A DNA stretch of 64,000 bases from an uncultured Saprospiraceae bacterium (GTDB lineage Bacteria; Bacteroidota; Bacteroidia; Chitinophagales; Saprospiraceae): assembly GCA_937959115.1 (NCBI GenBank), contig CALGAW010000005.1, positions 124,001 to 188,000 of the forward strand, given 5' to 3'. Of this stretch, positions 3,939 through 21,949 are shown one piece after another (the stretch's first letter is position 1; each line of letters starts with the position of its first letter). The translations under genes and the position numbers were made by a program. The notes below the pieces were generated by a model, which was given only the letters and a program-made list of their open reading frames with translations, made no database searches and was not told the origin of the DNA.

Positions 3939-4532
3939 ATGCTTGAAACACTTAAAATGGACGACGTTATCGAATCAGTATGCAAATACTATGGTTCATT
4001 ATCTCCTGTTTCTAAAGAAGCATTAAAAGCTAAGTCTGAAATTCACTTTTATGAGAAAGGAACGATGATCGTTAGGGAGGGCCAATACTCAGAAAAGCTC
4101 TTTTATATCGTTTCTGGCTGTGCCAGAGCGTTTTATCTAAAAGAAGGGAAAGACATTACCGATTGGTTCGCTTTCGAAAATCAGTTTATCAGTGCCATCA
4201 ATAGTTTTTTTCAAGGAATTCCCAGCCCACATTATCTAGAAGTATTGGAAGACACTGTTTTTCTCGAAATCTCTAGAGAAAACATCGAATATTTGTCCAG
4301 TAAGTTTCTAGATATTAATACCCTAGGAAGAATGGCAGTGACGCGGACCATGCTTGAGCTTCAACAGCGAATCGTCGCCCTTCAATTTGAAACCGCTCAA
4401 CAGAAATACGAAAACCTGTTTAAAATTTATCCTGATATCACACAACGAGTTCCCCTGATGCACATTGCCTCTTATCTAGGGATTACCCTCGAAACATTAA
4501 GCCGAATCCGTCATCCCAAACGCCGAATTTGA
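3939..4532 (+). CDS. Crp/Fnr-family transcriptional regulator
   Basis: A 197-residue cytoplasmic regulator. Residues about 20-125 form a cyclic-nucleotide-binding-type beta-roll (KGTMIVREGQYSEKLFYIVS motif, then ARAFYLKEGKDITDWF). Residues about 150-197 hold a short C-terminal HTH (VPLMHIASYLGITLETLSRI), the usual compact layout of Bacteroidota Crp-like proteins in which the effector is generally unknown. The cAMP-contact glutamate/arginine signature is not evident, so the ligand is undetermined. The gene lies 47 bp upstream of three co-directional genes (4580-6077) and is the obvious candidate to control them, and possibly the PKS gene further on; that is inference from position. Confidence 0.88.
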   Translation: MLETLKMDDVIESVCKYYGSLSPVSKEALKAKSEIHFYEKGTMIVREGQYSEKLFYIVSGCARAFYLKEGKDITDWFAFENQFISAINSFFQGIPSPHYLEVLEDTVFLEISRENIEYLSSKFLDINTLGRMAVTRTMLELQQRIVALQFETAQQKYENLFKIYPDITQRVPLMHIASYLGITLETLSRIRHPKRRI

Positions 4533-6468: not shown

Positions 6469-9400
6469 ATGAAACGTAAAAACATTGCAATTGTAGGATA
6501 CGGCTACCGAATGCCAGGTGGAATAAAAAGTGATAACGATTTTTGGAAGGTCCTCAGTGAACGACAGGTAATCCAATGTAATGTTGAAGACCGTTATGGA
6601 AAAGGATATGAACCGTTTGCAGGAAAACCAGGGCCAGGAAGGTTTGCCAATAAATATGAAGGCCTAATACTTGATGGAGAAGAACTAAAGTTTGACTGCA
6701 AATTGTTCGGTATGTCTCCATACGAAGCAGAGCAAATGGACCCTCAAATCAAACTACTGTTAAGCAGTACATGGGACGCGTTTGAACATTCTGGCTGGGA
6801 CATGCACAAACTGCGGAACAGCAATACAGGTGTCTTTATTGGGACACAGATCTCAGCTGCTTGTAACTGGCGTTCTCCACTAGGAGCAAACGAGTTTACA
6901 ATACCAGGAAGTAGCCTTTCTATGTTTGCCAATCGTATCTCCTATCATTTTAATTTAATGGGGCCATCAACAACAACATTGACCGCCTGTTCCTCAGGGA
7001 TAAGTGCGCTGCATTCGGCCATGAATTCCTTACAATGCGGTGACTGTAAACAAGCCATAGTCGGCTCCTCCAACTATCTGGGCTCCTTTTTAGCAAGTAC
7101 TGGGTTTGGATCATTAGGAGTCATCAGCCCAGATGGCAAATGTCACTCATTCGATGCGAATGCAAATGGATATATGCGGTCAGAAGGAGTCTTTGTTTTT
7201 GTTCTGAAACCGCTTGAAGATGCAGAAAGAGATGGCGACAAAATCCATGCGGTTATCTCAGAAACGATGCTGAATACAGCAGGCGCAGCTGAAGGCACTG
7301 AAGATTTAATCCAAGGAAGATACATTACTGCTCCAACACCACATGCTCAAATAGAATTGATGAAATCGGCTTGCGAACGAGTGGGGATTGACCCTCAACG
7401 ATTTGATTATATCGAGGCACATGCTACTGGCACAAAACTAGGTGACAGAATTGAAGGAAACGCCATCGGAGAAGTATTTGGTGGCTATGACCGAAAACAC
7501 CCATTACGAGTAGCCGGAGTGAAAAGTAATCTTGGGCATATGGAAGCAGCAGCGTTCCACTGTTCACTGCTGAAGATTGTATTGATGATGCAACGACGAA
7601 CATTCGCTCCGATATCCAACAATTATAAAATTGGAAATCCAGAGATCGATTTTGTTGGCAATAACATGCACGTACAAACGAATTGTGAACCCTTTCCAAA
7701 CGATCCTGTTGTAGTCGGAATTAACTCCTTCGGATTTGGTGGTGCAAACGGTATTTGTATTCTAGAAGAATATCAACCCAATCACCACAATCAATATTCT
7801 AGGCCAATATCAACCGATTCTGAGTACTTGTTCCCACTTTCAGCAAGAAGTACAGATGCATTAGAAAAACTAGTAGAAGAGGTGAACGTTTCTTTGACAG
7901 AAAACACAATAAATTCCTACGATTTAGCAGCGAACTTAAGTGTTCGACGGACCCACTTTGGCATCCGATCTTCAATTGTAGCAAAGGATCAAACAAGCCT
8001 GTTGGAAGCACTAAAGAACTTTGATGTAAAAGAAAACCTTAATCAACTATCGGGTAACAAAGAACACCGTATTCTAATGGTTTTTGCTGGTCAAGGAACA
8101 CAATGGGCAGGTTGTGCAAAAGCACTATACGCAAGCAATCCCGTTTTTAAACGAACCATTGACGCAATTGAGGAGTATTGGAACCAATATGCAGACTTTT
8201 CGCTTCGAGATGCCTGTTTCAACTCCGCACAGGAAGAACTGAATGAATGTGAATTAGCACAACCTGCCATCTTCATGGTGCAATGTGCTTTAGTCGAGAC
8301 ATTTAAAACTTGGGGCGTGTACGCCGATGGAGTCATTGGGCACAGTGCCGGAGAGATGGCCGCGGCCTATGCAAGTGGTGCACTTTCTCTTGAAGATGCT
8401 AGTCGTCTGGTCTTCTATCGCGCTCAATTGCAACAGCGAACAGCTGGCTCTGGTCGGATGCTTGCCATTGCGCTTGACCTCGAAGGCGTAGAGGCCTTAT
8501 TAACCGAAATGGGAATCACGTTTAGGGGCGATCAGGCACAAGTGGAAATTGCTTGTATCAACGCGCCAGCAAGTGTTGTGATTTGTGGACCACAGGAGAA
8601 CTTAAATCCAATTGTTGTTGAATTAACCAAGCGAAACAATCAGAAAAAATTGCTAGCCGGAAACATCGCTTTCCACTCTACGGCAATGAATCAAATAAAA
8701 GAGGATTTATTATCTAGTCTTCAATTTTTAGATCTAGGAGTTTTTAATGCAAATGTTCCTTTCATATCTTCTGTAACAGGTAAAGTTACAAGCCGCCTGG
8801 ATAGTCAATATTGGTGGTCAAATATCCGTCAACCTGTTCAGTTTTATGAAGCGATTAAAACGGCTGAAAAGACAATTCAACCAACCATTGTATTGGAAGT
8901 TGCGCCACACCATGCATTGACTCCGATTATAAGGCAATGTTTTGAACAAAGTAAGGAAGTTCCAGTTTGCATTAGCACTTTAAAAAGAAACACAGATACC
9001 AATAAGAGTTTTCATGAATCTCTGGGTTATCTCTATCGTAATGGGGTAGCGCTTGATTTTGAATCTCAATATCCGAAACCAAAACCGATCACAGATGGAT
9101 TGCCAGGTCATGCAAAGGAAGAGCAAATGACGATGGATATCATGATCGATGACACCCACTTCCTTAAAAATAGCCACTATAGTGTCGGACCGCTTGTTGG
9201 CAAAAAAATGCCACATGATAATCTAAGTTTTAAAGTACGAATGTCAGCTAAAGATTTTCCGTGGTTGGCAGATCATAAGGTACAACAAATGTCAATAGTG
9301 CCAGCAGCAGGATACATCGAAATGGTCCTACAGGCGTTAGGGAATAAACCAGCGCACTTTGATCACCTGAAGTTTAGGAATCCTTGTGTTATTGGGCCTG

Positions 9401-12400
9401 ATCCAGTTAGTCTGCATACGGAATTGAAGTTAGTTCCGGGTACAACCGGACAGTTTACATTTAGAATTGTATCGCGTTCTTTTCATTCTGAGGAAGAGCT
9501 AACCTTACACTCAGAGGGTAAGGTGCGTCTAGTAGAGGAGGCTCAACTCACTAAGGTTAAAAAAGGCATCTTTCCTCCAATTAAGGAAAACTTTGTTTCT
9601 ACTCGATTTGAGGAAGAAGGACAGTTTTATGAGCAAATGGATGCTGCCTTAGGCGATTATTTTCAATACGGCCCTTATTTTCAAGCCGTAAAGTCCATTG
9701 ACATTAATACTGATACCAAAGAGATTTTGCTCGACCTTCAAATGGATGAATCATTCTTTCAGGAAAGTATGGCTGCTGGTTACATGCTTCCTCCTTCACT
9801 GATGGACGGTGCGTTGCAATCCTTTATCTATTTCTTATTAGAAGTAACTGATTTATCTGGAATTCCAATGCAAGCGAATGATTTTACCATGTTTGCGCCA
9901 CCTACTTCAGGAAAGATTCTCTGTCATTTTAGACCGCCGAGCGCTTGGGCAGGAATGCACGAAAAAGGGCAATTAACATTAGAGTTGGGCGAACATTTTT
10001 GTGGAAGTGTCACTTTGTATGATCAGGTAACGGGTGATCTAGTTGCTCACCTTGGACAGTATTCCAGTTTTCATGCAAACTCTAAGAAAGGGGATTTAAT
10101 TCAAAGTAAGAAAATAATAAACTGGCAACCAAAATTTATAGCAAACACTGACTTCCTAGATAAATTACCAGAAGGAAAAATTCTTCCATTTAGTCTAATA
10201 CAATTGCTGGAGAAGCGATTTGAAAACAATCGAAATGCCCTTCGAATTATAGAACTAACAGATACGGAGGAACCAAATGAAACACTCTTTAAAACCTTTT
10301 ACAAGGAATTGGTTCAATCTAATTCTTCCTCAGAATATTGGCTTTGCTGTTCATCGGAGGACGGAACCAAAAAGAATTACGAGACATTCAACCATATTGA
10401 CAATGCAGTTCGGTTTGCTCAGCTAGATTTGGGAGAACCATTAGACTTAAGCAAAGGATTATTACGATTAGGAGCAGCAGAATTAGTCCTTGTAAATTAC
10501 ACAAGGCTTGAGGAAATGATAGAGCGTTGTTGTCTGGTGTGTTCGAAATTGACGGTGCCTGGAGGCCTAATATTAATCAATCATTCTTCAAATTCAACGT
10601 TAAATTTACCAGAAGACTTTACAATACTTCAGCATACAGCCACCACAACTTTAATACAGAACTCAAAAGAACTAACCTCAGATGATAGTGTTATCAAAAA
10701 TGAAGTTCGCTGGGTGATCGGAAATGAAGCCACATTGGCAGCACATTGGGCTACGTTAACGGAGGTGAAAACCAAGGAAGCATGCTTGATTTCATGCTTG
10801 TCGCAAGCCAAAGAGATTACAGCGATTGATTATTTCTGTAAATCAGACACGACAGACTCAACTGGTGAAAAGACCATCATCGAATTCACAAAATTTGTTC
10901 AAGATCTAATCGAATTTAGAATAAATAACAAGCTAGAGCCAGTTTGTTTAAATGTGATTACTCAGAATGCAGCCTTCGAGGTAACCGATCCTTCGACAAG
11001 CGCATTTTGGGGAGCCATCAGGAGTCTGACACTAGAAATCCCCGCTGAATTAAACCTACAAGTCAGAATCATAGATGTAGGAACAACAGCAGACTTAAAT
11101 ACCTTAAAGTGGTTGGCAAACAACGATATACGCGAAAAGGAAATCGCGATTCGACTAGAACAGATTTATGTTCCAAGAGTCATCAGTCTACAAAACGAAT
11201 TTCCTTTGATCCAAGCAAAAAAGGATATGCCTTATCGCTTGATGATTGACAATCCTGGTCAGATCACAGGCCTTCAGTTGAAGACCTATGACATGCCAGA
11301 ATTAGGCCCGAATGATGTAGAGATCGAAGTGGAGGCAGCAGCATTAAACTTTAGAGACATCATGGTTGCACTGGGTAAGTTGCCGCTCCTTTCATTTGAA
11401 CGCTCCGCTTTAGGTCATGAAGTTGGAATGGAAGCAAGTGGAACCATCGTCAAGGTCGGAAGCAAAGTGAAAAACCGAAAAGTTGGCGAACAAGTCGTAT
11501 TTATGAAAGGAGGCTGTATCGCAAACAGAATGGTGACCGATGCAAGAGCTACTTTTCTAAAACCAGCTAACCTAACCCAATCGCAAGCAGCAGGAGTGAT
11601 GTCAGTTTATGTGACGGCATATTATGCTCTAGTTGAACTGTCTCGATTGAAGAAAGGACAAAAATTCTTAATTCATTCAGCAATGGGTGGCGTAGGACAG
11701 TCGGCAATCGCTCTAGCTAAACATATCGGTGCTGAGATTTATGCAACAGCAGGAAGTGTTGAAAAACGCGAGAAGTTGCTTGCACTAGGTGTAAAAGCAG
11801 CCTTCGATTCTCATAGTTTTTCTTGGTACGATGATTTAATGGAAGCCACAAATGGCGAAGGTGTTGATGTTGTGTTGAATTCATTGGCAGGACATCATAT
11901 CAACTTATGCCTAGAGGCGCTAAAGCCTGGCGGATGGCACTGTGAGATCGGAAAGGTTGATATCTATGCCGATAACGCACTTAACCTATGTGTATTCAGA
12001 AAGAACCTGCGCTTCATTGCAATTGACGTCGATCGATTGATGATGGATGATCCAATGTTGAGCCAAGAGATTTCCAAGGCGTGTCTGGAACTACTTGATG
12101 CAGATATTCTTCCGCCGTTACCAATTACGAGTTATCCGTTAAAGGATTATCCGATCGCTTTAAGAAGTATGATGAACGGAGAACACCAAGGAAAGTTAAT
12201 CCTTGAAATGCCGAAAGAGCAAACGTGTGCAGAGACATTGGTTGCGGATAAACGGGCATTCTTTGATCCAACGGGGACGTTCCTTGTAACGGGTGCGTTT
12301 GGTGGGTTCGGTTTACGGTTGTTGTCTTATTTAGCGGCATCAGGAGTCAAGCATTTGACTTTAATGGATCGTGATACAACCAGAAGACGGTCTGTGGATT

Positions 12401-15400
12401 GGGTACGACAAAATTCAAGTATAGATAAGATGTTCCCTGATGTTCAAGTGGAAATAGTACAAGGAAGTACTGCGAATAGGGAAGATGTGGAACGTTGTAT
12501 CAATGGGCTCAACAAACCACTAAAAGGGATCTTCCACCTTGCGGGTGTCATTGATGATCAATTGATTAGTAAACTAACACCAGCCTCTATTCAGAAGGTG
12601 TTTGCTGCGAAAGCAAAAGGGGCACATTACTTACATGAAGCAACAAAAGACATCCCAATTGATTATTTTGTAGTGACTTCTTCCGTGGCTTCAGCTTTTG
12701 GGTCACCTGGGCAACTAAACTATTGCGCAGCCAATGCTTACTTGGATGGATTGATTTCTTACCGTCATCAAAATGGATTGCCTGGACTATCATTCAATAT
12801 GGGGGCTGTTGCAGAAGCGGGAATGGCAGCTCGTGATGCACATATCCTTAGAATAGCCAAAGCAGCTGGAATGCCAGCAATAAGTGCCTTGTTTGCATTC
12901 AGCGGATTGGATTATGGGTTAAGACAAATGAAACATAAAACCCACTTGGTAACTGCTTTGTTTAAGCGTATTCCGTGGACGGTCGATCACCCAGACTATA
13001 TGAGATTCGGAGCATTGATGAAAAATCAGGATTGCTTTAGCATGGGAGGTGGAGGACAGTTGACACCAGAAGGAATTACAACACAAATTGTAGCAAAAGT
13101 GTCGGAACTTTGTGGACATGATGATGTTGATGTTCACGAACCGTTTGCTAGTTTCGGATTGAACTCTATCTCTGTTTCTGAGTTAAGCGCTTTCATCAAT
13201 TCCCAGTTCAACTATCAAGTGAGTATTATTGACTTGATGACGAAGGCTACGACAGCGATTCTGGTTGATAAAATTATTAATCGACATTCAGAGGTAAACT
13301 CAGAAGAATTAGAAGACGAACGTGTTGAGGAGTCAATTTCAGAGGATGAAATGGTTCTTCCTAAAGTGAAGCGCATTCCTTCTGTTTTTGCAAATCAGTA
13401 TGAAGATCATTTTGAATATCCAATACTGAATGGTCATGCTAAACAAAATGGGATTGCTTTTTTAGAAAAACATCAGCCTAAAAATGGAATTTCTGAGGAA
13501 ACTAAGAAAAGGAATCCAATTGCAAAATTAAACGGGAACTTACCTCCTGATTGTCAAACGGACATTGATTCTTTAAGGTCCTTTATTCGTAATAAAATTG
13601 GTGATACTCCTCTTCAAAAGGCAGTTTCGCCATCAGCATTTAAACAAGTATTCATTACTGGAGCAACTGGTTTTATCGGACGCTTTATTCTTCGAGATCT
13701 GTTGACTCAACAACCAGATTTGATTGTTCACTGCTTGGTTCGAGCAACAGATGTGGAGCATGGGAAGAAACGCCTACAAGATGCATTGGAACTCGCCGAA
13801 ATTTGGGAGGACGACTTTGCTAATCGTATTCAGCCTGTTGTTGGAGATATCGGACTACCTCAGTTTGGCATATCAAATGAATTGTTTGTTGAATTGACTG
13901 AACAGGTGGATGCGGTTTATCACTTTGCTGCAGATTTGAACTTGGCTTCTCCTTACAAAAACATAAGAAAAGTCAATACCTTGAGTATGCAAAATGTGTT
14001 TGAATTGTGCTTGACCAATCGAGCAAAACATATTTTTTATGCATCCACGATGGGCATTTTCCCTCAATACTTTTGTCAATTTGGAGGAGAATTTATAGAT
14101 ACTGCTATTGAACATCAAGCACAACCTGAATTGGAGGTAATGAAGCGTAAATTCCCATTGGGATTTGTTGGTTATCCTTGGTCTAAGCTGGTGGTAGAAC
14201 AGAGTTTGTTCTTTGCCCAATCGGCTGGTTTACCAATTGCTATCTTCAGATTGCCAGTGACTGGAATGGCAGCTAAAACGGGGTATACTCAGATCAATGA
14301 TGTGAAGGTTCGTATCGCCTTATCGGCATTAAGTATTGGTAAAAAGTGTAAAAAATTAAAATTGCGATGGACAGAACCTGTTGACACAATTAGCGAGTTA
14401 TGTACAGCAATTTCATTAAATGAATCTAGAAAAAATGTTATTTATCAATGTTGTAATCCAACGCCAGAAAATCATGGATTGACCTTTCTTGATCTTGGTA
14501 TTGACCTAGAAGAAGTTTCTTATTCAGAATTTAAAAAGGCATGTTTGGCAGAAGGTGAGAAATCACCGCTTCAAGGATATTGGTCATTAGTCGATTATTT
14601 TGAGCCCTACTGGTTTGGAAAATCAAGAGCCAATGGTTCACTTCCCATTTCGGATCAAGCCATCAAAGAAGATTGTCCATTTAAACTAGAGTGGCCAGGA
14701 TTAATCACAATGAGTGCCAATTCCTATAAGTGGATTGAACGTCATAAAGATAATTGGACTTATGATTCTCCTAATGGAATAATCAGCATGGATATCCTAT
14801 TGCGACTAGCAAAGCGTTTTGCATTAGAGAATGGTGTTTCTTTCAAAGAAGCTTATCCTGCTTCAATCTTGACGGCACTGGAAGGTTTGGTCAATACGTT
14901 GAATGCTCCTGAAGCCAATTTAATACCAGCAAGACGCTCCGTGACTGCGATAAATTTAAGTCGAAAACTGTTCAATCTCAGCTCTTTGGCAAAGGAACGG
15001 AAGCTACATCCTGAAATTGTATCTCAGCGGATAAGCCGTCCTGTATTCATCGTAGGCATCAACCGAACAGGCACTACTTTCATGCATAAACTGCTTGCGC
15101 AAGACATGCGATTCAACACCATAAAATTGTACGAATCGGTCAATCCTCAAATGCTTGGAAATGGGTATGAAAATCAGAAGGAGTATGCAAACGATCCAAG
15201 GCGTGCCTATGTTGCGGATATGATTGCAGGCTATGAAGCGGCTGAGCAATTGCAAGGCATTCACCGAGTAGATATTGATGCACCTGAAGAGGAATTTGGC
15301 TTGCTCGAACATTCTTTTTCTTCCTGGAGTTCAACCATTCTTTTTCACTTGCCAGAATATTGCAAACAACTGAAAGAAAAGGGCAGCGATGATGCGTATC

Positions 15401-16008
15401 AAATGCACCATCAAATCTTACAACATTTCAATTGGCGACGAAAGCAAACCGCTGAAAATCAAGAACTGCAATGGTTATTAAAGATGCCATTTCACTTGAT
15501 GTCTTTGGAAGAGTTGTTGGAAGTATATCCTGATGCCTTGTTTATCCAAACTCATCGTGATCCCTGTGAATTTATGAGTTCGTGGAATCATTTAGTTGAG
15601 CAATCTCGTGCTACTTTTTCAACCCCTCAACCGAGATCAGCCCTTGGAAAGCAGCAACTTTCGTTTATGAGCAACATGTTACAAAAGGCGATTGATTTTA
15701 GACATGCAAACCCAGCATTAGAAGAACGATGGATTGATGTTAGCTACTATGATTTTATTAAGGAACCATTGAAAACCGTTCAAACCATTTATAATCAATG
15801 GGGGATGCCGCTTGAACAATCAACGGAAGACAGAATGCAAAACTGGATTACCAAGCAAAACAAGCAACGAAGTACAGAAAACATGCATAAACATCACCTG
15901 AGCGACTTTATGTTGAACAAGGAGACTGTGGAGGCTGCTTTTGCTGGGTATCTAACGTTTGTAGAGGAACGTGAAATTAACATAAGAAAACAGCTTTTAC
16001 AGGAATAG
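6469..16008 (+). CDS. Type I highly reducing polyketide synthase with thioester reductase and sulfotransferase (KS-AT-DH-psMT-ER-KR-ACP-TR-ST)
   Basis: A 3,179-residue single-module megasynthase. Domains: KS ~4-430 with Cys174-His318-His357; AT ~540-860 with GHSAGE (Ser626) and AFHS, suggesting malonyl use; DH ~930-1200 with His936 and Asp1113 (the Gly of HxxxGxxxxP is Gln); a degenerate methyltransferase-like region ~1225-1420 without a glycine-rich SAM loop; ER ~1590-1900 (GGVG at 1740-1743); KR ~1935-2120 (TGxxGGxG at 1941, Tyr2085, Asn2089); ACP with Ser2233; an acidic linker of about 110 residues; a Lys2/CAR-type thioester reductase ~2390-2740 (GATGFIG at 2398, Tyr2569, Lys2573); and a C-terminal Sulfotransfer_3-type domain ~2850-3179 with PAPS motifs GINRTGTT (2863-2870) and HRDP (3029-3032). 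All catalytic residues except the MT appear intact. Predicted product: a reduced chain released as aldehyde/alcohol, possibly sulfated. Specificity is inference. Confidence 0.93.
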   Translation: MKRKNIAIVGYGYRMPGGIKSDNDFWKVLSERQVIQCNVEDRYGKGYEPFAGKPGPGRFANKYEGLILDGEELKFDCKLFGMSPYEAEQMDPQIKLLLSSTWDAFEHSGWDMHKLRNSNTGVFIGTQISAACNWRSPLGANEFTIPGSSLSMFANRISYHFNLMGPSTTTLTACSSGISALHSAMNSLQCGDCKQAIVGSSNYLGSFLASTGFGSLGVISPDGKCHSFDANANGYMRSEGVFVFVLKPLEDAERDGDKIHAVISETMLNTAGAAEGTEDLIQGRYITAPTPHAQIELMKSACERVGIDPQRFDYIEAHATGTKLGDRIEGNAIGEVFGGYDRKHPLRVAGVKSNLGHMEAAAFHCSLLKIVLMMQRRTFAPISNNYKIGNPEIDFVGNNMHVQTNCEPFPNDPVVVGINSFGFGGANGICILEEYQPNHHNQYSRPISTDSEYLFPLSARSTDALEKLVEEVNVSLTENTINSYDLAANLSVRRTHFGIRSSIVAKDQTSLLEALKNFDVKENLNQLSGNKEHRILMVFAGQGTQWAGCAKALYASNPVFKRTIDAIEEYWNQYADFSLRDACFNSAQEELNECELAQPAIFMVQCALVETFKTWGVYADGVIGHSAGEMAAAYASGALSLEDASRLVFYRAQLQQRTAGSGRMLAIALDLEGVEALLTEMGITFRGDQAQVEIACINAPASVVICGPQENLNPIVVELTKRNNQKKLLAGNIAFHSTAMNQIKEDLLSSLQFLDLGVFNANVPFISSVTGKVTSRLDSQYWWSNIRQPVQFYEAIKTAEKTIQPTIVLEVAPHHALTPIIRQCFEQSKEVPVCISTLKRNTDTNKSFHESLGYLYRNGVALDFESQYPKPKPITDGLPGHAKEEQMTMDIMIDDTHFLKNSHYSVGPLVGKKMPHDNLSFKVRMSAKDFPWLADHKVQQMSIVPAAGYIEMVLQALGNKPAHFDHLKFRNPCVIGPDPVSLHTELKLVPGTTGQFTFRIVSRSFHSEEELTLHSEGKVRLVEEAQLTKVKKGIFPPIKENFVSTRFEEEGQFYEQMDAALGDYFQYGPYFQAVKSIDINTDTKEILLDLQMDESFFQESMAAGYMLPPSLMDGALQSFIYFLLEVTDLSGIPMQANDFTMFAPPTSGKILCHFRPPSAWAGMHEKGQLTLELGEHFCGSVTLYDQVTGDLVAHLGQYSSFHANSKKGDLIQSKKIINWQPKFIANTDFLDKLPEGKILPFSLIQLLEKRFENNRNALRIIELTDTEEPNETLFKTFYKELVQSNSSSEYWLCCSSEDGTKKNYETFNHIDNAVRFAQLDLGEPLDLSKGLLRLGAAELVLVNYTRLEEMIERCCLVCSKLTVPGGLILINHSSNSTLNLPEDFTILQHTATTTLIQNSKELTSDDSVIKNEVRWVIGNEATLAAHWATLTEVKTKEACLISCLSQAKEITAIDYFCKSDTTDSTGEKTIIEFTKFVQDLIEFRINNKLEPVCLNVITQNAAFEVTDPSTSAFWGAIRSLTLEIPAELNLQVRIIDVGTTADLNTLKWLANNDIREKEIAIRLEQIYVPRVISLQNEFPLIQAKKDMPYRLMIDNPGQITGLQLKTYDMPELGPNDVEIEVEAAALNFRDIMVALGKLPLLSFERSALGHEVGMEASGTIVKVGSKVKNRKVGEQVVFMKGGCIANRMVTDARATFLKPANLTQSQAAGVMSVYVTAYYALVELSRLKKGQKFLIHSAMGGVGQSAIALAKHIGAEIYATAGSVEKREKLLALGVKAAFDSHSFSWYDDLMEATNGEGVDVVLNSLAGHHINLCLEALKPGGWHCEIGKVDIYADNALNLCVFRKNLRFIAIDVDRLMMDDPMLSQEISKACLELLDADILPPLPITSYPLKDYPIALRSMMNGEHQGKLILEMPKEQTCAETLVADKRAFFDPTGTFLVTGAFGGFGLRLLSYLAASGVKHLTLMDRDTTRRRSVDWVRQNSSIDKMFPDVQVEIVQGSTANREDVERCINGLNKPLKGIFHLAGVIDDQLISKLTPASIQKVFAAKAKGAHYLHEATKDIPIDYFVVTSSVASAFGSPGQLNYCAANAYLDGLISYRHQNGLPGLSFNMGAVAEAGMAARDAHILRIAKAAGMPAISALFAFSGLDYGLRQMKHKTHLVTALFKRIPWTVDHPDYMRFGALMKNQDCFSMGGGGQLTPEGITTQIVAKVSELCGHDDVDVHEPFASFGLNSISVSELSAFINSQFNYQVSIIDLMTKATTAILVDKIINRHSEVNSEELEDERVEESISEDEMVLPKVKRIPSVFANQYEDHFEYPILNGHAKQNGIAFLEKHQPKNGISEETKKRNPIAKLNGNLPPDCQTDIDSLRSFIRNKIGDTPLQKAVSPSAFKQVFITGATGFIGRFILRDLLTQQPDLIVHCLVRATDVEHGKKRLQDALELAEIWEDDFANRIQPVVGDIGLPQFGISNELFVELTEQVDAVYHFAADLNLASPYKNIRKVNTLSMQNVFELCLTNRAKHIFYASTMGIFPQYFCQFGGEFIDTAIEHQAQPELEVMKRKFPLGFVGYPWSKLVVEQSLFFAQSAGLPIAIFRLPVTGMAAKTGYTQINDVKVRIALSALSIGKKCKKLKLRWTEPVDTISELCTAISLNESRKNVIYQCCNPTPENHGLTFLDLGIDLEEVSYSEFKKACLAEGEKSPLQGYWSLVDYFEPYWFGKSRANGSLPISDQAIKEDCPFKLEWPGLITMSANSYKWIERHKDNWTYDSPNGIISMDILLRLAKRFALENGVSFKEAYPASILTALEGLVNTLNAPEANLIPARRSVTAINLSRKLFNLSSLAKERKLHPEIVSQRISRPVFIVGINRTGTTFMHKLLAQDMRFNTIKLYESVNPQMLGNGYENQKEYANDPRRAYVADMIAGYEAAEQLQGIHRVDIDAPEEEFGLLEHSFSSWSSTILFHLPEYCKQLKEKGSDDAYQMHHQILQHFNWRRKQTAENQELQWLLKMPFHLMSLEELLEVYPDALFIQTHRDPCEFMSSWNHLVEQSRATFSTPQPRSALGKQQLSFMSNMLQKAIDFRHANPALEERWIDVSYYDFIKEPLKTVQTIYNQWGMPLEQSTEDRMQNWITKQNKQRSTENMHKHHLSDFMLNKETVEAAFAGYLTFVEEREINIRKQLLQE

Positions 16009-16019
16009 CGATTGGTGAC

Positions 16020-16044
16020 GTAGGGCGAATTGCAATTCGCCTAC
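16020..16044. repeat. Palindromic element between convergent genes
   Basis: An imperfect palindrome centred on GAATTGCAATTC (arms 16020-16032 and 16033-16044, one bulged G) sits exactly between the convergent PKS and phosphopantetheinyl transferase genes. No U-tract follows on either strand, so it is a weak terminator at best. A related palindrome occurs at 26417-26442, so it is probably a small dispersed repeat. Confidence 0.55.
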
Positions 16045-16052
16045 ACGGTTAC

Positions 16053-16802
16053 TTAAATAGCTTCCAACAATTTTATCCTAGCTTCAAATGTTTCTAAACT
16101 TGGTGTCGTAAACTTAGGCATCACTAGGCTTAAAACATATTCACCAATAGGATAGGAAATGGCTTTGTATTGGCCGAAGTTGATAAAAGTAGATTCATAA
16201 TAATTTTCTTTTCGGTGAATGCTTTCCAGCTCTAATAACTTAAAGTCTAGTGTAAGCCCTGTCCGTAGTACTTTAGACAAGCTTTCTTTTATTGTCCAGG
16301 CCGTTAAGTAACCAACTACTTTGGGAAGTCCAGCTTGTTGGAGCAGGCGTCGTTCCTTCAACGTAAGATGTTCCTCAATGATATCCGCTTGCTTGGGATC
16401 TACTTTCTCTAAATCAATTGCCAAAGGATGCGCCTGAGGATGAACCACTGACATCCCTATATCCTCGCAATGCGTAATACTAACAGCAAGGCCACCCGAT
16501 TCTCCTTCAATAATAGGGAAGGAAAACACCCCTGTCCCAATGAAAATGGTTGACTGTTTCTCTGTTGGAATTAATAAGGAAAGGGCTTCTCTGCTAGCAA
16601 ATCGTCCTAGGAGATATGCTTTTTTCCGAATATCAAATCTATGATTTTGACTAACAACGATTTCAGTTGGGTGCAAGGATTGTAAGTTGTTTTTGAGTGT
16701 CTCCAAGGAAGCACGAACCATACTGAATGCTGCAGTATGATTGGTGCTTTTGCGGGACAATCGAATTTTACAACTTGCTATATTATGCTCTAGTAAAGGC
16801 AT
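16053..16802 (-). CDS. 4'-phosphopantetheinyl transferase (Sfp/HetI-like)
   Basis: A 249-residue Sfp-type enzyme that transfers phosphopantetheine from CoA to a carrier-protein Ser. The motifs are in order: SITH with His111, AIDLE with Asp130 and Glu132 (Mg-binding acidic pair), and WTIKESLSK with Glu173. Length fits the two-lobed Sfp class, not the ~125-residue AcpS class. The Gly usual in the VG(I/V)D motif is Ala here, which is tolerated in the family. It is convergent with the PKS gene, 44 bp from its end, so it is the natural activator of the ACP at Ser2233; it could also serve other carriers. Family assignment is firm, pairing is inferred from position. Confidence 0.88.
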   Translation of the reverse strand: MPLLEHNIASCKIRLSRKSTNHTAAFSMVRASLETLKNNLQSLHPTEIVVSQNHRFDIRKKAYLLGRFASREALSLLIPTEKQSTIFIGTGVFSFPIIEGESGGLAVSITHCEDIGMSVVHPQAHPLAIDLEKVDPKQADIIEEHLTLKERRLLQQAGLPKVVGYLTAWTIKESLSKVLRTGLTLDFKLLELESIHRKENYYESTFINFGQYKAISYPIGEYVLSLVMPKFTTPSLETFEARIKLLEAI

Positions 16803-16869
16803 GAGATTACATTGCTTTATAAGCAGTTAAGGTAGCCTTTTTAAACTTATTTTTCAAGCAGACAGATGA

Positions 16870-17292
16870 TTAGTCCATGCCTGGAAATGACGTTACTTTT
16901 TTCACCTTTAAATCAGGAAATGAAGTCACGACCTGGACTTTGAAATCAGGAAAACTAGTTACTTCTTTCCACTCTCCACAATCATCAGCAAAACTGTCAA
17001 CAAATTTCACGTTTATATCAGGAAATGACGTAACATATTGGATTTTTATGTCTGGAAATGAGGTGACAAACTCCACTTTCCCATAGAGTTTGATGCCCTC
17101 GAACTCACAATCTCCTGTTTCTATAAAATGCTTGATTGCTTCTTTCCTTTTTTCTGGGGATAATTCACTCAAGTGTTGATAGGTAGTATTGTTTTCTAAT
17201 AAGAAGTTATCAGTGGAAATAGAATTCGAGTGAGACATTTCCGCCAATAAAATTGTTGAAATAAAAAGAAAGAATAAAAGTTGGTTTCTCAT
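16870..17292 (-). CDS. Exported protein with 11-residue VTSFPD repeats
   Basis: A 140-residue protein. Residues 1-22 look like a Sec signal peptide (MRNQLLFFLFISTILLAEMS). Residues 40-72 are a helical polar region with EKRKEAIKHFIETGDCEF. From residue 76 there are six copies of VTSFPD or a variant (starting at 76, 87, 98, 111, 122, 133), spaced 11, 11, 13, 11 and 11 residues, each followed by an alternating strand such as FKVQV or LKVKK; copy three is degenerate (VDSFAD) and adjoins DDCGEW. The strict period and beta-prone sequence suggest a small repetitive beta fold. I do not recognise a named family and assign no function. Upstream lie direct repeats at 17399-17429. Confidence 0.7.
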   Translation of the reverse strand: MRNQLLFFLFISTILLAEMSHSNSISTDNFLLENNTTYQHLSELSPEKRKEAIKHFIETGDCEFEGIKLYGKVEFVTSFPDIKIQYVTSFPDINVKFVDSFADDCGEWKEVTSFPDFKVQVVTSFPDLKVKKVTSFPGMD

Positions 17293-17398
17293 TGTACAAA
17301 TTTTAATAAAAGTGATTAATCTGAATCTTGTTATTCAAAGATATACGATCAAGGAGATTCTAAAAAGGAAAAAAGGACTGGTATTTATCACTTAAAAT

Positions 17399-17429
17399 AG
17401 GTTGACAACTATTTAACAGGTTGATAACT
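17399..17429. repeat. Short direct repeats upstream of the VTSFPD gene
   Basis: AGGTTGACAACT (17399-17410) and AGGTTGATAACT (17418-17429) differ at one base and are offset by 19 bp, i.e. nearly two helical turns; a partial third (AGTTGAT) follows at 17430. They lie in the gap between mgsA and the minus-strand gene at 16870-17292 and could be regulator binding sites. They also loosely resemble DnaA boxes on the minus strand (TTATCAACC). Confidence 0.4.
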
Positions 17430-17520
17430 AGTTGATTTTGGTGTAGTTTTCCCTTGTTTAGTTAAACGAAAAAAGATTGAGTCAAGGATAGAAATGCCTA
17501 TATAAAGCATGGATTTGATC

Positions 17521-17916
17521 TTATTCAGAATCTTCTAACACATCTTTCACACCTCGTAATAAATAGTAAGCCGCTTTAGGATTGGTTGCCAAAGGAACAT
17601 TGTGGACATCGCAAAGTCGAACCAACATCTGTACATCAGGTTCGTGAGGATGCCTGTCCAATGGATCTCTAAAAAAGATGACTAAATCTATTTTTCCAGT
17701 TGCAACCATTGAGGCAATTTGTGCATCTCCTCCGAGCGGACCGCTGAGGAGTTTGACGATTTCTAATCCTTCTGCTGCTATTTTTGCACCCGTTGTACCT
17801 GTTGCGAAAAGTTTCATTCCTCGTAGGAACTTTTTATTGTTCAATACAAAGGAAACCATATCCGATTTCTTTCCATCGTGTGCAATTAACGCGGTATTAA
17901 TGATTGATTTATCCAT
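17521..17916 (-). CDS. mgsA: Methylglyoxal synthase
   Basis: A 131-residue cytoplasmic enzyme converting dihydroxyacetone phosphate to methylglyoxal and phosphate, the bypass that relieves sugar-phosphate stress. The family hallmarks are all present: ALIAHDGKK with His13, FATGTTG phosphate loop, [11 protein letters not shown] with the catalytic Asp64, FFRDPLD with Asp84, and PHEPD with His91. Length is close to the E. coli enzyme (152) minus its C-terminal extension. The gene stands alone on the minus strand; a TAnnTTTG box is only 5 bp upstream of the ATG, suggesting an mRNA with almost no leader. Confidence 0.95.
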
Positions 17917-17921
17917 TGATG

Positions 17922-17929
17922 CAAAGGTA
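17922..17929 (-). promoter_or_regulatory. -7 promoter box for mgsA
   Basis: On the minus strand this reads TACCTTTG, an exact TAnnTTTG match, ending 5 bp before the mgsA start codon (17914-17916). Transcription would begin at or next to the ATG. No convincing -33 TTTG was found. Confidence 0.45.
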
Positions 17930-18129
17930 ATTATTTAGCAGGGATAAATTTGAAAAGGTAGGTTAAGTGATGGTTAATTTTTAGGTAGTGTTGGGTTTTT
18001 ACTGAAAAATTAAACAAGTATCTCTCTTCAAAATAGTAATGAAATGCAAACTGATTTAGATGATTAGGTGAGCATGCCTAGGCAAATTGATGTTTTCAGT
18101 CTATGAGGGAAAAAAGCGTTTGGCAAGCC

Positions 18130-19848
18130 TTACTTCACAATCTTCCGACTAGAGATCTTCCCCTTCAGCTCATCAGATCCACCAGCATCCAATGCTTTTT
18201 GCCAGTACTCCACAGCACCATTCACTTCATTTAGTTGGAACAGCGTATCGCCATAGTTTTCAAGGATGTCAGGGGACTTGTGTCCACCATTGTCAATGGC
18301 CTTTTTAATCCATTTCTTGGCATCCTTGTATTTCTTTTGCTTGTACAGCACCCAGCCATAAGTGTCCAAGTAATTGGGTTGATTGGGCTCTGCTTTTAGA
18401 GCCTTTTCAATCATGGCTTGTGCCTTTTCAAGCTTTTCGCCTCGTACGGATAGGAAATAGCTATAGTTGTTAAGTGTAAGTGGATTGCTATCGTTTAGTT
18501 GAAGCGCCTTGTCAAAAAACTCATCAGATTGATCAGATTTTTTGAGGTTGTGATACTCGGTGCCAAGCTGAATAAAGATTTGTTCCTTGAGTGGCACATT
18601 CTTACCAGACATCATCGCTGCTTGCCTTAGCACGTCAATCGCTTCCTCGTGATCTCCTTTTCGGCTATTAGCGACGCCATTAAAAAAGTAGGCGATGGCT
18701 TGATTCGGAAAAATATCCATTGCATCCTCGCTGTTTTTGAGCAATTCGTCATTTTGTCCAAGCGCATTATTAATAAACAGAATTTGTTCCCAAAGCGAAA
18801 ACACGTTCTTGTTGAGTGCTATTGCTTTTTTATATTGGGTCAGTGCGTCATTTGGCCGATCAGCGTAGTTTAGCATATCGCCATAGATACTGAATGCCTT
18901 AGCGTCGTCGTGTGTCTTCGTCAAGGTTTCAGCAAGGCTGATGGCCTCCTTTTTAAAGGCCTCGTCCGTTGTGTTGCCCACTTTTTCTGTAAAAGGCACC
19001 AATTCCTTAATTTTCACATCGATATTGATATCAGGATTAGAGAAAATCTCTTGTAGTGACTGAAGATATTGTGTATCATTTCCACTTGCTTTAAGCGTTT
19101 GTGCTAAGGCAAGATTGGCGATGTCATTTTCCGGATCTACCTTCAGCACCTCCTTGTACATTTCAGCTGCTTTTTCAGGTTCGCCGGAGTATTCATAGTG
19201 ATCCGCCAACATCAATTTGTAATCAGGGTCACGTGGAAACGCATTGACAAGGTTCTCAATTTCTGCTGCCGCTTTTACAGGTTTCTTTTGCTCCATGTGG
19301 ATGGAGTACTTGGCGGCTGTGGTCTGTTGAGTCGGACCCAGTTTTTTTTCTATCTCGTTGTATATTTTTAATGCTTGATCAAACTTTTTCTCTTCTAGGT
19401 TATACTCAGCACGCTTAAAGTAAAAATCAATTTCATCTGGATTGATTTTGGTCATACTTTCATACACCGTAGCCGCTTTATCATAATCACCCTCTGCATC
19501 ATAAATTTCTGCTAGTAAACCATGATAAAACAAGTTTTTCGGGCTGTTATTGATTGCCGACTGCGCATTTTTTTTGGCTTTTCCGAATGATTTTTGGATC
19601 ATATTGATCTTTGCCAGCTCAAAATAGGCAGCATGGTTCGTCTTGTCCTTTTTTAGGACTTCCTCAAATAGATAAGCAGCATCATCGTAGTTTTCCAACA
19701 CTTTCTCCTTGTTGGCCTCAATGAATACCTTTTCGATTTGTACCTGTTGTTCACTAGGTCTGGTTATCTGAGCATCGGCAGGCTGTATGCCAATAAAGAC
19801 AAGCAAAACTAAAGACAGGTAGAGAGAAATATGTAGGTTAACCGGCAT
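18130..19848 (-). CDS. Exported tetratricopeptide-repeat protein
   Basis: A 572-residue protein with an N-terminal signal peptide (hydrophobic YLSLVLLVFIGI followed by QPADAQ) and then almost continuous TPR helices to the end, at least ten repeats, recognisable from patterns such as AAYFELAKINMIQKSFGKAK, NLFYHGLLAEIYDAEGDYDK and NYLDTYGWVLYKQKKYKDAK. TPR solenoids mediate protein-protein contacts; being exported, this one probably acts in the periplasm or at the outer membrane in envelope assembly. It begins 53 bp downstream of the sugar nucleotidyltransferase gene (19902-20900) on the same strand; in several Bacteroidota this gene pair is conserved next to envelope genes, as I recall. Specific partner unknown. 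Confidence 0.85.
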   Translation of the reverse strand: MPVNLHISLYLSLVLLVFIGIQPADAQITRPSEQQVQIEKVFIEANKEKVLENYDDAAYLFEEVLKKDKTNHAAYFELAKINMIQKSFGKAKKNAQSAINNSPKNLFYHGLLAEIYDAEGDYDKAATVYESMTKINPDEIDFYFKRAEYNLEEKKFDQALKIYNEIEKKLGPTQQTTAAKYSIHMEQKKPVKAAAEIENLVNAFPRDPDYKLMLADHYEYSGEPEKAAEMYKEVLKVDPENDIANLALAQTLKASGNDTQYLQSLQEIFSNPDINIDVKIKELVPFTEKVGNTTDEAFKKEAISLAETLTKTHDDAKAFSIYGDMLNYADRPNDALTQYKKAIALNKNVFSLWEQILFINNALGQNDELLKNSEDAMDIFPNQAIAYFFNGVANSRKGDHEEAIDVLRQAAMMSGKNVPLKEQIFIQLGTEYHNLKKSDQSDEFFDKALQLNDSNPLTLNNYSYFLSVRGEKLEKAQAMIEKALKAEPNQPNYLDTYGWVLYKQKKYKDAKKWIKKAIDNGGHKSPDILENYGDTLFQLNEVNGAVEYWQKALDAGGSDELKGKISSRKIVK

Positions 19849-19901
19849 TTCGTGAATCTAATTTATTATTACCTTACGGAAAATGTATCCTGAATGTTTT
19901 G

Positions 19902-20900
19902 TTATAATTTAGAATAATCTCCAATGCTTATTTCTTTCATTTGAAGTTTATATTCTACTTTATTTCCAATCATTGAATCTTTTACTACAACGTTTTCAAT
20001 GTGTGAATCATTCTGGATCACACTATTTTTGATCACACTTGAAATCACTTTCGTATTGAAACCAACTGACACATGGGGCCCAATCACAGAATCTTTAATG
20101 TGTGCGCCGTCAGCAATCATGCATGGCTCAATAATCGTTGTGTTTTCAATTGTTGCCTTACTGGATACAAGATTCGTGCCTTTATTATTTTCTAAAACCC
20201 GCTGATTACTATGCACCACGGCGTCTTTATTCCCACAGTCCAACCATTCGTCGATCTCCTTCGGGAAAAACTTCATGCCTTTCAGCCTCATATTGTCCAA
20301 GGCGTTGGTAATCTGGTATTCTCCTTTTATTTTTATATCGTTGTCTATCAGGTATTGGAGCTCATTTCTCAGGTACTCTCCATCTTTAAAGTAATAGATA
20401 CCGATTATTGCAAGGTCCGAAATGTAAGTGTCTGGTTTTTCAATAAAATTGGTAATGTACCCTTCTTCTCCTAGCTGAACCACTCCAAACGCAGAAGGAT
20501 CTTCTACCTTTTTCACCCAAATCGCTCCTTCTGTTGATGTATCTAGTTTTGATTCTGATCTGAACAAACAGTCTGCAAAAGCTACAATGCAAGGTCCTTT
20601 GAGGCTTTCCTTTGCACAAAGAATGGCATGTCCCGTCCCAAGTGGTTCATCCTGGTGGCAGATGACTCCTTTGGTGCCTAATGTTTCTGCTACACCAAGC
20701 AAGAGTTTTTCAGCTTCGGGCCCAAAATCGCCAATGATAAAGGCAATTTCATCTATTTTCTCATCAATCGCTTTTGCAATATCTTCAACAATTCTTTGAA
20801 CGATCGGCTTTCCCGCTACTGGGACGAGTGGTTTCGGTACTGTAAGCGTGTGTGGCCTCAGTCTTGACCCACGTCCTGCCATTGGTATTATTATTCTCAT
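19902..20900 (-). CDS. Sugar-phosphate nucleotidyltransferase
   Basis: A 332-residue two-domain enzyme. The N-terminal Rossmann-like nucleotidyltransferase domain (about 1-235) carries the NTP-binding signature IPMAGRGSRLRPHTL and the PKPLVPVAGKPI motif, with a GTGHAI base-contact segment and ADCLF metal-binding Asp. The C-terminal ~100 residues form a left-handed beta-helix (repeats such as ATIENTTIIEPCMIADGAHI). This is the RmlA/GlmU-N/UGP group that makes NDP-sugars from NTP and sugar-1-phosphate; the precise sugar cannot be read from sequence. It has a TAnnTTTG promoter with a perfect palindrome at the start site and precedes the TPR gene in a probable two-gene operon. Confidence 0.88.
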   Translation of the reverse strand: MRIIIPMAGRGSRLRPHTLTVPKPLVPVAGKPIVQRIVEDIAKAIDEKIDEIAFIIGDFGPEAEKLLLGVAETLGTKGVICHQDEPLGTGHAILCAKESLKGPCIVAFADCLFRSESKLDTSTEGAIWVKKVEDPSAFGVVQLGEEGYITNFIEKPDTYISDLAIIGIYYFKDGEYLRNELQYLIDNDIKIKGEYQITNALDNMRLKGMKFFPKEIDEWLDCGNKDAVVHSNQRVLENNKGTNLVSSKATIENTTIIEPCMIADGAHIKDSVIGPHVSVGFNTKVISSVIKNSVIQNDSHIENVVVKDSMIGNKVEYKLQMKEISIGDYSKL

Positions 20901-20920
20901 AAATTATTTTTGTTGCTTTT

Positions 20921-20936
20921 CAGGCAAATTTGCCTG
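20921..20936. promoter_or_regulatory. Perfect 16-bp palindrome at the nucleotidyltransferase promoter
   Basis: CAGGCAAATTTGCCTG is a perfect inverted repeat lying directly downstream of the minus-strand -7 box (20937-20944), covering the expected transcription start and 20 bp before the ATG. This is a good position for an operator or a short leader hairpin. Confidence 0.45.
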
Positions 20937-20944
20937 CAAATATA
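20937..20944 (-). promoter_or_regulatory. -7 promoter box for the nucleotidyltransferase-TPR operon
   Basis: Reads TATATTTG on the minus strand, an exact TAnnTTTG match, 36 bp upstream of the start codon at 20898-20900. The -33 element is not clear. Confidence 0.5.
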
Positions 20945-21103
20945 CGTAAAACTTCTATTATTCTTATGCAGGAACAGTGCTACTTAGAATGGGAAATTAA
21001 ACAAAGAAAATACTGTTTTTAGCATTGGAAACTTAAATAATACCCTTCTTCAATCATTCTGCACTATTCAATCGTTTTGTTTCCATTTATCCAAATAAAA
21101 AAA

Positions 21104-21285
21104 GGCAATGCTACTATCAGTTCCTCCTCCAAAGAACTCGATACTTGCATTGCCAAATTACACTACCTATGAAAAGTTTTTACTTAACTCATTATAATTC
21201 CCTTTTGAATTATGTCTTTAAAACGAAAGATATTGTGCTTAATTGCGTTTTAATTACAGTATAACAATTGTTTAACCTTTGTGAA
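21104..21285 (+). repeat. Duplicated 182-bp hairpin/mini-ORF element, copy 1
   Basis: This block is repeated at 21669-21850 with 11 substitutions and no gaps (about 94% identity). It begins with a compound hairpin: outer stem GGCAATGC/GCATTGCC (21104-21111 with 21147-21154) and inner stem AGTTC/GAACT, preceded by an A-run that becomes a U-tract on the minus strand. A 31-codon plus-strand ORF (21169-21264) follows. It may be a mini-gene with a structured leader or a minus-strand small RNA ending in a terminator. Confidence 0.7.
21169..21264 (+). CDS. Possible 31-residue peptide, copy 1
   Basis: ATG at 21169 to TAA at 21262, 31 codons, starting MKSFYLTHYNSLLNYVFKTK. The same frame is intact in the second copy. 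Eight of the eleven differences between copies fall in this ORF and almost all change the amino acid, so selection on the protein is not evident. No family recognised. Confidence 0.3.
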   Translation: MKSFYLTHYNSLLNYVFKTKDIVLNCVLITV

Positions 21286-21421
21286 TATTTTTTAACGAAC
21301 GTTGAAAGCTTCTTCCTTTTTCAATCATGATGTATCAAATTTAAAGTCTCCAATCATAAATTGTCATTCTGCGAAGACACAAAGAGATGGAAGCTTCAGT
21401 TATTTGAAAGACCTTTCACTT

Positions 21422-21533
21422 CTTGAAGAAGTAACAGGTCGCCCCTTCTCTTGAAGAAGTAACAGGTCGATCATTCTCTTGAAGAAGTAACAGGTCGCCC
21501 CTTCTCTTGAAGAAGTAACAGGTCGATCATTCG
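21422..21533. repeat. 28-bp tandem repeat, four units
   Basis: Four head-to-tail units at 21422-21449, 21450-21477, 21478-21505 and 21506-21533. The first 20 bp (CTTGAAGAAGTAACAGGTCG) are identical in all; the last 8 alternate strictly CCCCTTCT, ATCATTCT, CCCCTTCT, ATCATTCG. This is a 56-bp unit duplicated once. No reading frame is kept across units (28 is not a multiple of three). Degenerate matches (gaagcaggtcagtcattct, about 21573-21591) follow. Confidence 0.9.
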
Positions 21534-21668
21534 CTGCTCTTTTAAACGATTTTACGTTCTTCTTATTCATACCGAAGCAGGTCAGTCATTCTGGACTTTT
21601 CAAAAGATCGTATTTACCCGAATCCTCATTCTACGATTGATTTTGTTTGATTCATAAAATAAAAAAAA

Positions 21669-21850
21669 GGCAATGCTACTAACAGTTCCTCCTCCAAAGA
21701 ACTCGATACTTGCATTGCCAAATTACACTACCTATGAAAAGTTTTTACTTTACTCATTATAATTCCCTTTTGAATTATGACTTTAAAACGGAAGATATTG
21801 TGCTTAATTGTATTTTAATTGAAGCATAACAATAGTTTAACCATTGTGAA
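21669..21850 (+). repeat. Duplicated 182-bp hairpin/mini-ORF element, copy 2
   Basis: Second copy, offset exactly 565 bp from copy 1. The hairpin is unchanged apart from one base in the loop region. Together the two copies flank the 28-bp tandem repeat. The 1-kb interval 20945-21949 holds these elements and no longer gene. Confidence 0.7.
21734..21829 (+). CDS. Possible 31-residue peptide, copy 2
   Basis: ATG at 21734 to TAA at 21827, 31 codons, starting MKSFYFTHYNSLLNYDFKTE. Length and frame match copy 1. It differs from copy 1 at seven residues, making it more acidic. No recognised family or export signal. Confidence 0.3.
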   Translation: MKSFYFTHYNSLLNYDFKTEDIVLNCILIEA

Positions 21851-21904
21851 ACTATTTAACAGTAGAATTCTTCGATTACATTGATCAAGATCTCTTAAAA
21901 TAAT

Positions 21905-21930: not shown

Positions 21931-21949
21931 ATTCAATATCTTTTTGTTG

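Follow-up and report, generated by a model that had tools for sequence, protein, structure and literature searches.

The window analysed here, a 64,000-nucleotide stretch of contig CALGAW010000005.1 from an uncultured Saprospiraceae bacterium, carries a single open reading frame (ORF) of 3,179 amino acids (aa), beginning with ATG, which we predict to encode a fused SwfA-SwfB megasynthase. The swf system, or "sponge symbiont widespread FAS" (fatty acid synthase), was described by Della Sala et al. in 2013 (PMC3908369; this and the other papers are cited from those of their sections that were available to us). A gene for a predicted Sfp-like phosphopantetheinyl transferase (PPTase) lies convergent with the fused gene across a gap of 44 bp. 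With a G+C content of 41.1% against 40.0% for the window, the fused gene is inconspicuous in composition, and it is apparently real, intact and conserved.

Pfam reads the protein as KS-AT-DH-(no named domain)-ER-KR-ACP-TR-ST (Table 1), where TR is a thioester reductase and ST a sulfotransferase. The E values were 5.5e-60 (ketoacyl-synt), 8.6e-67 (Acyl_transf_1) and 2.3e-14 (PKS_DH_N) from KS to DH; 8.6e-11 (ADH_N), 3.2e-18 (ADH_zinc_N), 1.1e-50 (KR) and 4e-7 (PP-binding) from ER to ACP; and 1.5e-47 (NAD_binding_4, TR) and 1.1e-35 (Sulfotransfer_3, ST) at the C-terminus. A first-pass annotation of this DNA had proposed TR followed by ST with no thioesterase (TE), and Pfam yields both domains in that order; no TE family matched the 3,179-aa protein, the same library detecting a TE in a Planktothrix polyketide synthase (PKS; L021), and Pfam found no loading module in it. 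The annotation had also placed a pseudo-methyltransferase (psMT) between DH and ER. This label is unproven, since residues 1148-1612 or thereabouts gave no Pfam match and the published SwfA description, in the sections available, names no methyltransferase (PMC3908369).

Table 1. Predicted domains of the fused gene and the adjoining PPTase gene (positions in the window).
Feature	Position	Strand	Basis
Fused SwfA-SwfB megasynthase (predicted)	6469..16008	+	Pfam; homology to L053 (G002)
KS, active Cys in TACSSG; swf-type DPQI, HATGT	6478..7932	+	Pfam, motifs
AT, GHSAGE + IAFH (malonyl-type), QCALVE swf signature	8080..9024	+	Pfam, motifs
DH, His + Asp kept; Gly of canonical HxxxG replaced	9190..9909	+	Pfam, alignment
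DH-ER interval without Pfam match (psMT of the first-pass annotation)	9910..11304	+	Pfam
ER	11305..12204	+	Pfam, alignment
KR, Rossmann + Ser/Tyr motifs kept	12274..12816	+	Pfam, alignment
ACP, phosphopantetheine Ser in FGLNS	13084..13257	+	Pfam, alignment
Thioester reductase (TR/R, SwfB N-terminal half): TGATGFIG, AST, GYPWSK	13531..14772	+	Pfam, motifs, structure comparison
Sulfotransferase (ST, SwfB C-terminal half): GINRTGTT, KMPFH, HR...S	14773..16005	+	Pfam, motifs, structure comparison
Sfp-like PPTase, 249 aa	16053..16802	-	Pfam ACPS; relatives near the other two fused loci

The published SwfA consists of KS-AT-DH-ER-KR-ACP, SwfB of a reductase (R) and an ST, and SwfC is a B12 radical SAM protein (PMC3908369). 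Motifs reported for SwfA are DPQI/V and HATGT (replacing DPQQR and HGTGT, respectively), IAFH, QCALVEL, which varies somewhat at its first and last residue, and GHSSGE, which is not termed a signature (PMC3908369). The window has the single SwfA module and the SwfB unit, with R on the N-terminal and ST on the C-terminal side, and it carries DPQI at residue 91, HATGT at 318, QCALVET at 605 and IAFH at 733. We collected 43 SwfA-like frames of at least 2,000 aa (42 loci and the window), among which HATGT and IAFH occur in all 43, QCALVE in 35 and DPQ[IV] in 30, while DPQQ and HGTGT occur in none. Forty of these frames measure 2,342-2,433 aa and are separate from SwfB; the remaining three, of 3,179-3,205 aa, are fused and comprise the window and two further loci, L053 and L054, the latter lacking QCALVE. 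In place of GHSSGE, found in the 12 split rows shown, the three fused copies read GHSAGE, which on the aligned sequences is a one-residue change common to the fused clade. SwfB is likewise not a separate gene in any of the three, and SwfC was not found in the window genome. Because a separate SwfB, SwfC and GHSSGE are all missing, we call the window gene a variant composed of SwfA and SwfB homologues rather than a standard swf cluster; judged from signatures, genome searches and the literature, it is a form of the swf system. Assignment to the sup (sponge ubiquitous PKS) family was considered and dropped, swf fitting both gene content and motifs. A candidate fourth fusion, the 2,040-aa frame of L099, was also discarded, as SwfA is a separate protein of 2,372 aa at this locus, overlapped by a spurious frame in DNA of 69% G+C.

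The catalytic residues inspected are present in the window protein. The canonical DH motif is HxxxG, and its Gly is replaced in the window as well as in each of the 14 swf rows of the alignment. The motifs inspected in KS, AT, DH, ER, KR and ACP agree with these 14 relatives, L053 and L054 included; those of DH, ER and KR are conserved in 15 of 15 aligned SwfA rows, in which the active Cys of KS and the Ser of ACP are also visible. In the reductase, TGxTG and the Lys of YxxxK are present in all 69 aligned sequences and the Tyr in 68; in the ST, the RxGTT of the 5' phosphosulfate loop, Lys3005, His3009 and HR are present in all 69 and the 3' Ser in 67. In 68 of 72 loci entered, TR and ST are read in a single frame without interruption, a proportion that the search itself favours, the query having been the joined protein.

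An AlphaFold2 model of residues 2355-3179 (mean pLDDT 89.8, pTM 0.87) confidently predicts an MxaA-like reductase joined to a mycobacterial Stf-type sulfotransferase. By VIA-align, the modelled TR matched a Streptomyces coelicolor PKS TR (8v1x; Z 40.6, rmsd 2.9 over 380 residues) and the R domain of MxaA (4w4t, Z 40.5, rmsd 2.9 over 383; 4u7w, Z 40.4), and the modelled ST matched STF9 (2z6v; Z 39.3, rmsd 2.9 over 379) and STF1 (2zq5; Z 37.0, rmsd 3.0 over 363). The top Foldseek entries were the same TR and ST structures, and MxaA is among the nearest solved R domains by sequence as well as by fold. The ST retains the features of sulfotransferases that use 3'-phosphoadenosine 5'-phosphosulfate (PAPS), namely the 5' phosphosulfate-binding loop, the Arg/Ser of the 3' phosphate-binding site and the sulfotransferase fold. 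An ST lacking PAPS-binding geometry, which the first-pass annotation had named as grounds for abandoning its proposal, did not emerge, and PAPS binding is predicted.

To trace the fusion, we used the C-terminal part (790-825 residues) as query against 60 neighbourhood genomes, 298 genomes of the same family (both sets including the window's own) and 395 genomes of the phylum (E<=1e-40). Among the neighbourhood and family genomes, one other carries TR-ST: G002, an uncultured Saprospiraceae bacterium of the same genus. Its copy (L053) is 72-73% identical to the window in TR-ST, is also fused, in a frame of 3,211 aa, and gives the best identity over a SwfA segment (77%). The other eight matching genomes of the 60-genome set, among them G001, the third of the genus, have a free sulfotransferase only. 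Five of the 395 phylum genomes matched, namely the window's own and four of one other family, in which TR-ST is a gene of its own (834 aa, 822 aa to the contig end, 846 aa, and broken in G271) with PKS genes close by; these four, ranked by the genome search in the phylum of the window, tell against the novelty that the first-pass annotation had suggested. A B12 radical SAM gene with DUF4070 also adjoins the TR-ST gene in G224 and G334. Phages gave no match, and none of the 175 matching plasmid records covered more than 80% of the query (at most 52% among the 20 matches listed).

A contig scan with a five-protein TR-ST alignment gave 143 pattern matches, of which the best 80 of 83 relatives represent 79 loci. 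Of these, 75 (L053-L127) belong to the TR-ST family, some complete and some cut to a fragment by the end of a contig, and the remaining four (L128-L131) encode a free sulfotransferase only; 75 is a lower bound because two short peptide patterns were used and the best 80 of 83 relatives were taken. Three loci coincide with genomes of the searches above (L053 with G002, L104 with G314, L124 with G334). The 75 loci come from records of metagenome-assembled genomes (MAGs) of Acidobacteriota, Gemmatimonadota, Latescibacterota, Nitrospirota, Pseudomonadota, Chloroflexota, Rhodothermota and others. Many of their isolate prefixes resemble what we take to be sponge metagenome bins, a point that the available sections of PMC10469786 do not settle; neither L053 nor L054 mentions a sponge in its record title. 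The title of L054 is "Williamsia sp.", a doubtful label, since the 49.4% G+C of the locus is, we presume, low for this actinobacterial genus.

In a TR-ST tree, the fused copies group together in a single clade of three (SH-aLRT 100), with L054 on a long branch. The tree was built by a quick method, rooted at the midpoint, and holds 71 rows from 70 loci (G334 and L124 being the same contig): 68 of the 72 loci entered, the window and two sequences from the genome searches. Left out were L058, L100, L114 and L125 (stops or frameshifts), L115, L117 and L122 (partial) and L128-L131 (ST only). The most divergent TR-ST (35% identity, branch 1.65) belongs to G334 (L124/L036), where the radical SAM and PKS genes stand in the opposite orientation to swfB and the 602-aa PKS frame ends early in AT.

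The PPTase of the window (Pfam ACPS, 7.8e-11; ACPS superfamily) is 61% and 38% identical to PPTases near the two other fused copies, the three being mutually 38-61% identical, and on this comparison is apparently their orthologue. The related gene lies divergent beside the start of the fused gene in L054 and about 10 kb away in G002 (L039:6398-7141). A search with the TR-ST C-terminus, as the first-pass annotation had suggested, finds the fusion again in L053 and L054, with a related PPTase no more than about 10 kb away in both. That annotation had further spoken of the PKS's own PPTase, which calls for some caution: the genome encodes three ACPS-domain ORFs in all, but it is this one that is related to the PPTases of the other fused loci, the other two not being close to them. 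A profile of the three PPTases clearly matched one further gene, at the split cluster L114 (E 2.3e-9), and gave a marginal hit in L060 (E 0.0012), although diverged PPTases at other swf loci may have escaped a profile of three sequences. Since L114 is split and has one too, PPTase linkage marks the fused clade without being exclusive to it. L114 (positions 9941-22232, a Binatia MAG) has swfB, which is frameshifted, swfA, swfC and the PPTase gene in that order.

Across the 75 loci, SwfA was found near SwfB in 66, SwfC in 57 and both in 53 (E<1e-20), counts that are lower bounds, the flanks often being short. Ten of the 53 loci whose flanks reach at least 9 kb upstream and at least 3 kb downstream, L053 and L054 included, have no SwfC in the stretch, so that its absence is not confined to the fused clade; one published swf cluster (pPSA11D7) also lacks it (PMC3908369). 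At E<=1e-5, SwfC had no match in the window genome (G000, 96% complete), in G002 or in G710, the home of the split locus L068. The same search matched five of the eight genomes: G224, G334 and G711 strongly, G709 at 30% identity and G001 at 26%. The match in G709, the home of L054, sits on another contig. In G711, the split swf locus L083 has no SwfC nearby and a 65% match lies on contig C20, away from L083, so in some genomes the pathway may draw on a SwfC encoded elsewhere. As far as our searches show, what appears to be new is the joining of SwfA and SwfB in Saprospiraceae, accompanied by a related PPTase close by and no SwfC.

In 2013 it was proposed that SwfB converts a terminal carboxylate into a primary sulfate, giving an alkyl sulfate, and activation of a SwfA ACP by Svp, an Sfp-type PPTase, was shown (PMC3908369). 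Domains, residues, fold, homology and fusion are observed at the window locus; for the steps after the acyl-ACP and for the order of reactions, we infer the following. The nearby PPTase would arm the ACP, and the single PKS module would iterate with malonyl units and full reduction at each step to a saturated acyl-ACP. With no TE, the TR would release the chain with NADPH in two successive two-electron steps, through the aldehyde to the primary alcohol (a presumed four-electron reduction), and the adjoining ST would move sulfate from PAPS to the alcohol, the likely acceptor, to yield a putative primary alkyl sulfate. No radical SAM modification is expected, because the genome has no detectable SwfC. 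Myxalamid synthase is listed among the enzymes with a demonstrated four-electron reduction to the alcohol (PMC2835699), a metazoan FAS in which TR replaces TE makes fatty aldehydes and alcohols (PMC13303079), and the window genome has one match to APS kinase for PAPS supply. We consider it fairly probable that this one-protein SwfA-SwfB builds a saturated chain iteratively, releases it reductively as an alcohol and sulfates it, the product being a primary alkyl sulfate. The logic put forward by the first-pass annotation, in which an alcohol is formed by reduction and then sulfated, is retained as the likeliest; its novelty is rejected, the alkyl sulfate from R and ST having been proposed already in 2013 (PMC3908369) and TR-ST recurring in many bacterial phyla.

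Other explanations were weighed against alkyl sulfate formation; their probabilities overlap, as they are not mutually exclusive in every part. The nearest to it, and still somewhat unlikely, is a sulfated but functionalised lipid, formed by skipping ER or DH in some rounds or by an unusual starter. Optional use of the SwfA reducing domains has been held possible (PMC3908369), but the 15 of 15 rows that keep the DH, ER and KR motifs, the lack of a loading module and the lack of a recognised tailoring oxygenase in the window neighbourhood argue against it. Less likely again is a TR that stops at the aldehyde after two electrons, another enzyme making the alcohol or acceptor and the ST sulfating that or another lipid headgroup. 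R domains of both kinds exist (PMC13303079, PMC2835699); however, the joining of TR and ST in 68 of 72 loci suggests direct hand-over, and no recognisable alcohol dehydrogenase lies beside the window gene, where three small ORFs have no Pfam match. Least of all, and to be regarded as improbable, is a CurM/Ols-like course in which the ST sulfates an ACP-bound beta-hydroxyl for elimination and the TR releases an unsaturated or beta-sulfated aldehyde or alcohol. PKS ST domains can act in this way (curacin A, PMC3908369), and the KR would make a beta-hydroxyl, yet this would normally be consumed, since DH and ER are present with conserved residues; moreover, there is no TE for decarboxylative release, the ST resembles STF1/STF9 in sequence and fold, and it is joined to TR and not to ACP. 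The CurM/Ols STs were absent among the 60 of 116 profile-search matches listed, which carries no weight either way.

Several points tell against the alkyl sulfate reading itself. Expression of a split swf cluster with Svp in E. coli gave no new product, and the same paper remarks that alkyl sulfates would escape lipid analysis by standard saponification and methylation (PMC3908369). No swf product is identified in the available sections of PMC3908369, PMC4245539, PMC9426513 and PMC9864124, and those of PMC4445524 say nothing about TR-ST. One paper (PMC9864124), with reference to the 2013 work and one other source, gives SwfA a part in making methyl-branched fatty acids; such a role was not seen in the available sections of the 2013 paper (PMC3908369). 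Some TRs stop at the aldehyde, and TRs of the PKS and nonribosomal peptide synthetase (NRPS) type were at least tenfold less active in FAS hybrids than those of the carboxylic acid reductase (CAR) type (PMC13303079). Sequence as used here cannot separate two-electron from four-electron TRs, nor is the ST acceptor readable from it; the closest ST structures are mycobacterial Stf enzymes; and the fused set comprises three sequences. A wider proposal, that the fused clade is a self-contained one-polypeptide synthase (with its PPTase) that turns malonyl-CoA, NADPH and PAPS into unbranched alkyl sulfates outside sponges and so reveals the product of the sponge swf system, is one that we advance tentatively and rate at somewhat less than an even chance.

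Comparison with known systems places the window gene close to swf. MxaA, the terminal R domain of myxalamid synthase, shares the TR fold and residues; we take it to be terminal, with no ST after it. CurM and Ols have STs inside type I PKSs, as the window does. They use TE and decarboxylation, whereas the window has TR and no TE (curacin chemistry according to PMC3908369). The Planktothrix PKS L021 is a type I PKS with a C-terminal ST of the Sulfotransfer_3 kind, 31% identical to that of the window, but it has TE in place of TR, another domain order and an NRPS neighbour. The coccidian type I FASs, by their description, have R and ST contiguous at the end of one chain, as here, but are eukaryotic and multimodular; two such enzymes were the only other contiguous R and ST known (PMC3908369). 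The swf cluster itself agrees with the window in its KS-AT-DH-ER-KR-ACP module, in the DPQI/V, HATGT, IAFH and QCALVE signatures and in the R and ST unit (PMC3908369), and differs in that the window has one polypeptide with a related PPTase close by, reads GHSAGE where swf has GHSSGE, and comes from a Saprospiraceae genome in which SwfC had no match.

The swf system is a widespread PKS/FAS type of sponge microbiomes, and its product is not identified in the available sections of the 2013 description or of the later literature found. Sponge MAGs assigned to Nitrospirota, Latescibacterota and Acidobacteriota have been reported to carry swf-like clusters (PMC9426513), and the poribacterial origin of swf was withdrawn (PMC4245539). 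Our analysis places an apparently intact swf-type pathway in Saprospiraceae, a family not named as a carrier in the sections available of the literature found, which may point to an organism easier to sample or grow than sponge symbionts. With the fusion, the nearby PPTase and no SwfC, the pathway would shrink to two genes, and the 2013 alkyl sulfate proposal would therefore be testable with one construct. The value of the locus lies in its use as a compact test case for what swf makes.

Further observations concern the surroundings of the swf genes. Upstream of the fused gene in the window, a cyclic nucleotide-binding (Crp-like) regulator gene (3939-4532) is separated from it by the three small ORFs, and a 33% identical Crp-like gene adjoins the PPTase gene in G002 (L039:5653-6345). 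In G002, the TPR and nucleotidyltransferase genes that flank the window copy share contig C96 and the swf gene is on C118, so no shared site is seen between the two genomes. A small ORF of about 94 aa near swf (L033:5868-6152) has matches in 40 of the 75 loci, was not found in the window, L053 or L054, and stands upstream of swfA in the three maps showing it (L033, L035, L038); it may be the 92-aa hypothetical ORF beside swfA in PMC3908369. A trio of genes for a DUF1214-type protein, a Sulfotransfer_3 protein and an SDR lies within about 13 kb of swf in G002 (L039:8210-11652) and G224 (L034:6798-10294), the DUF1214-type protein having a Pfam match in G002 only and its G224 counterpart being alike by eye. 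A link of the trio to swf was set aside as unproven: G001 has a 47% identical ST relative without swf, the DUF1214 query matched one of the 75 loci, and nothing else in the window genome closely matches the trio ST. Finally, plasmids of Planktothrix agardhii encode a 2,510-aa type I PKS ending in TE-ST (L021:8638-16170 and L023:5623-13155), its domains read by Pfam in L021 and the L023 copy recognised by the same length and product name; its neighbours are NRPS, iron-containing alcohol dehydrogenase and phytanoyl-CoA dioxygenase genes.

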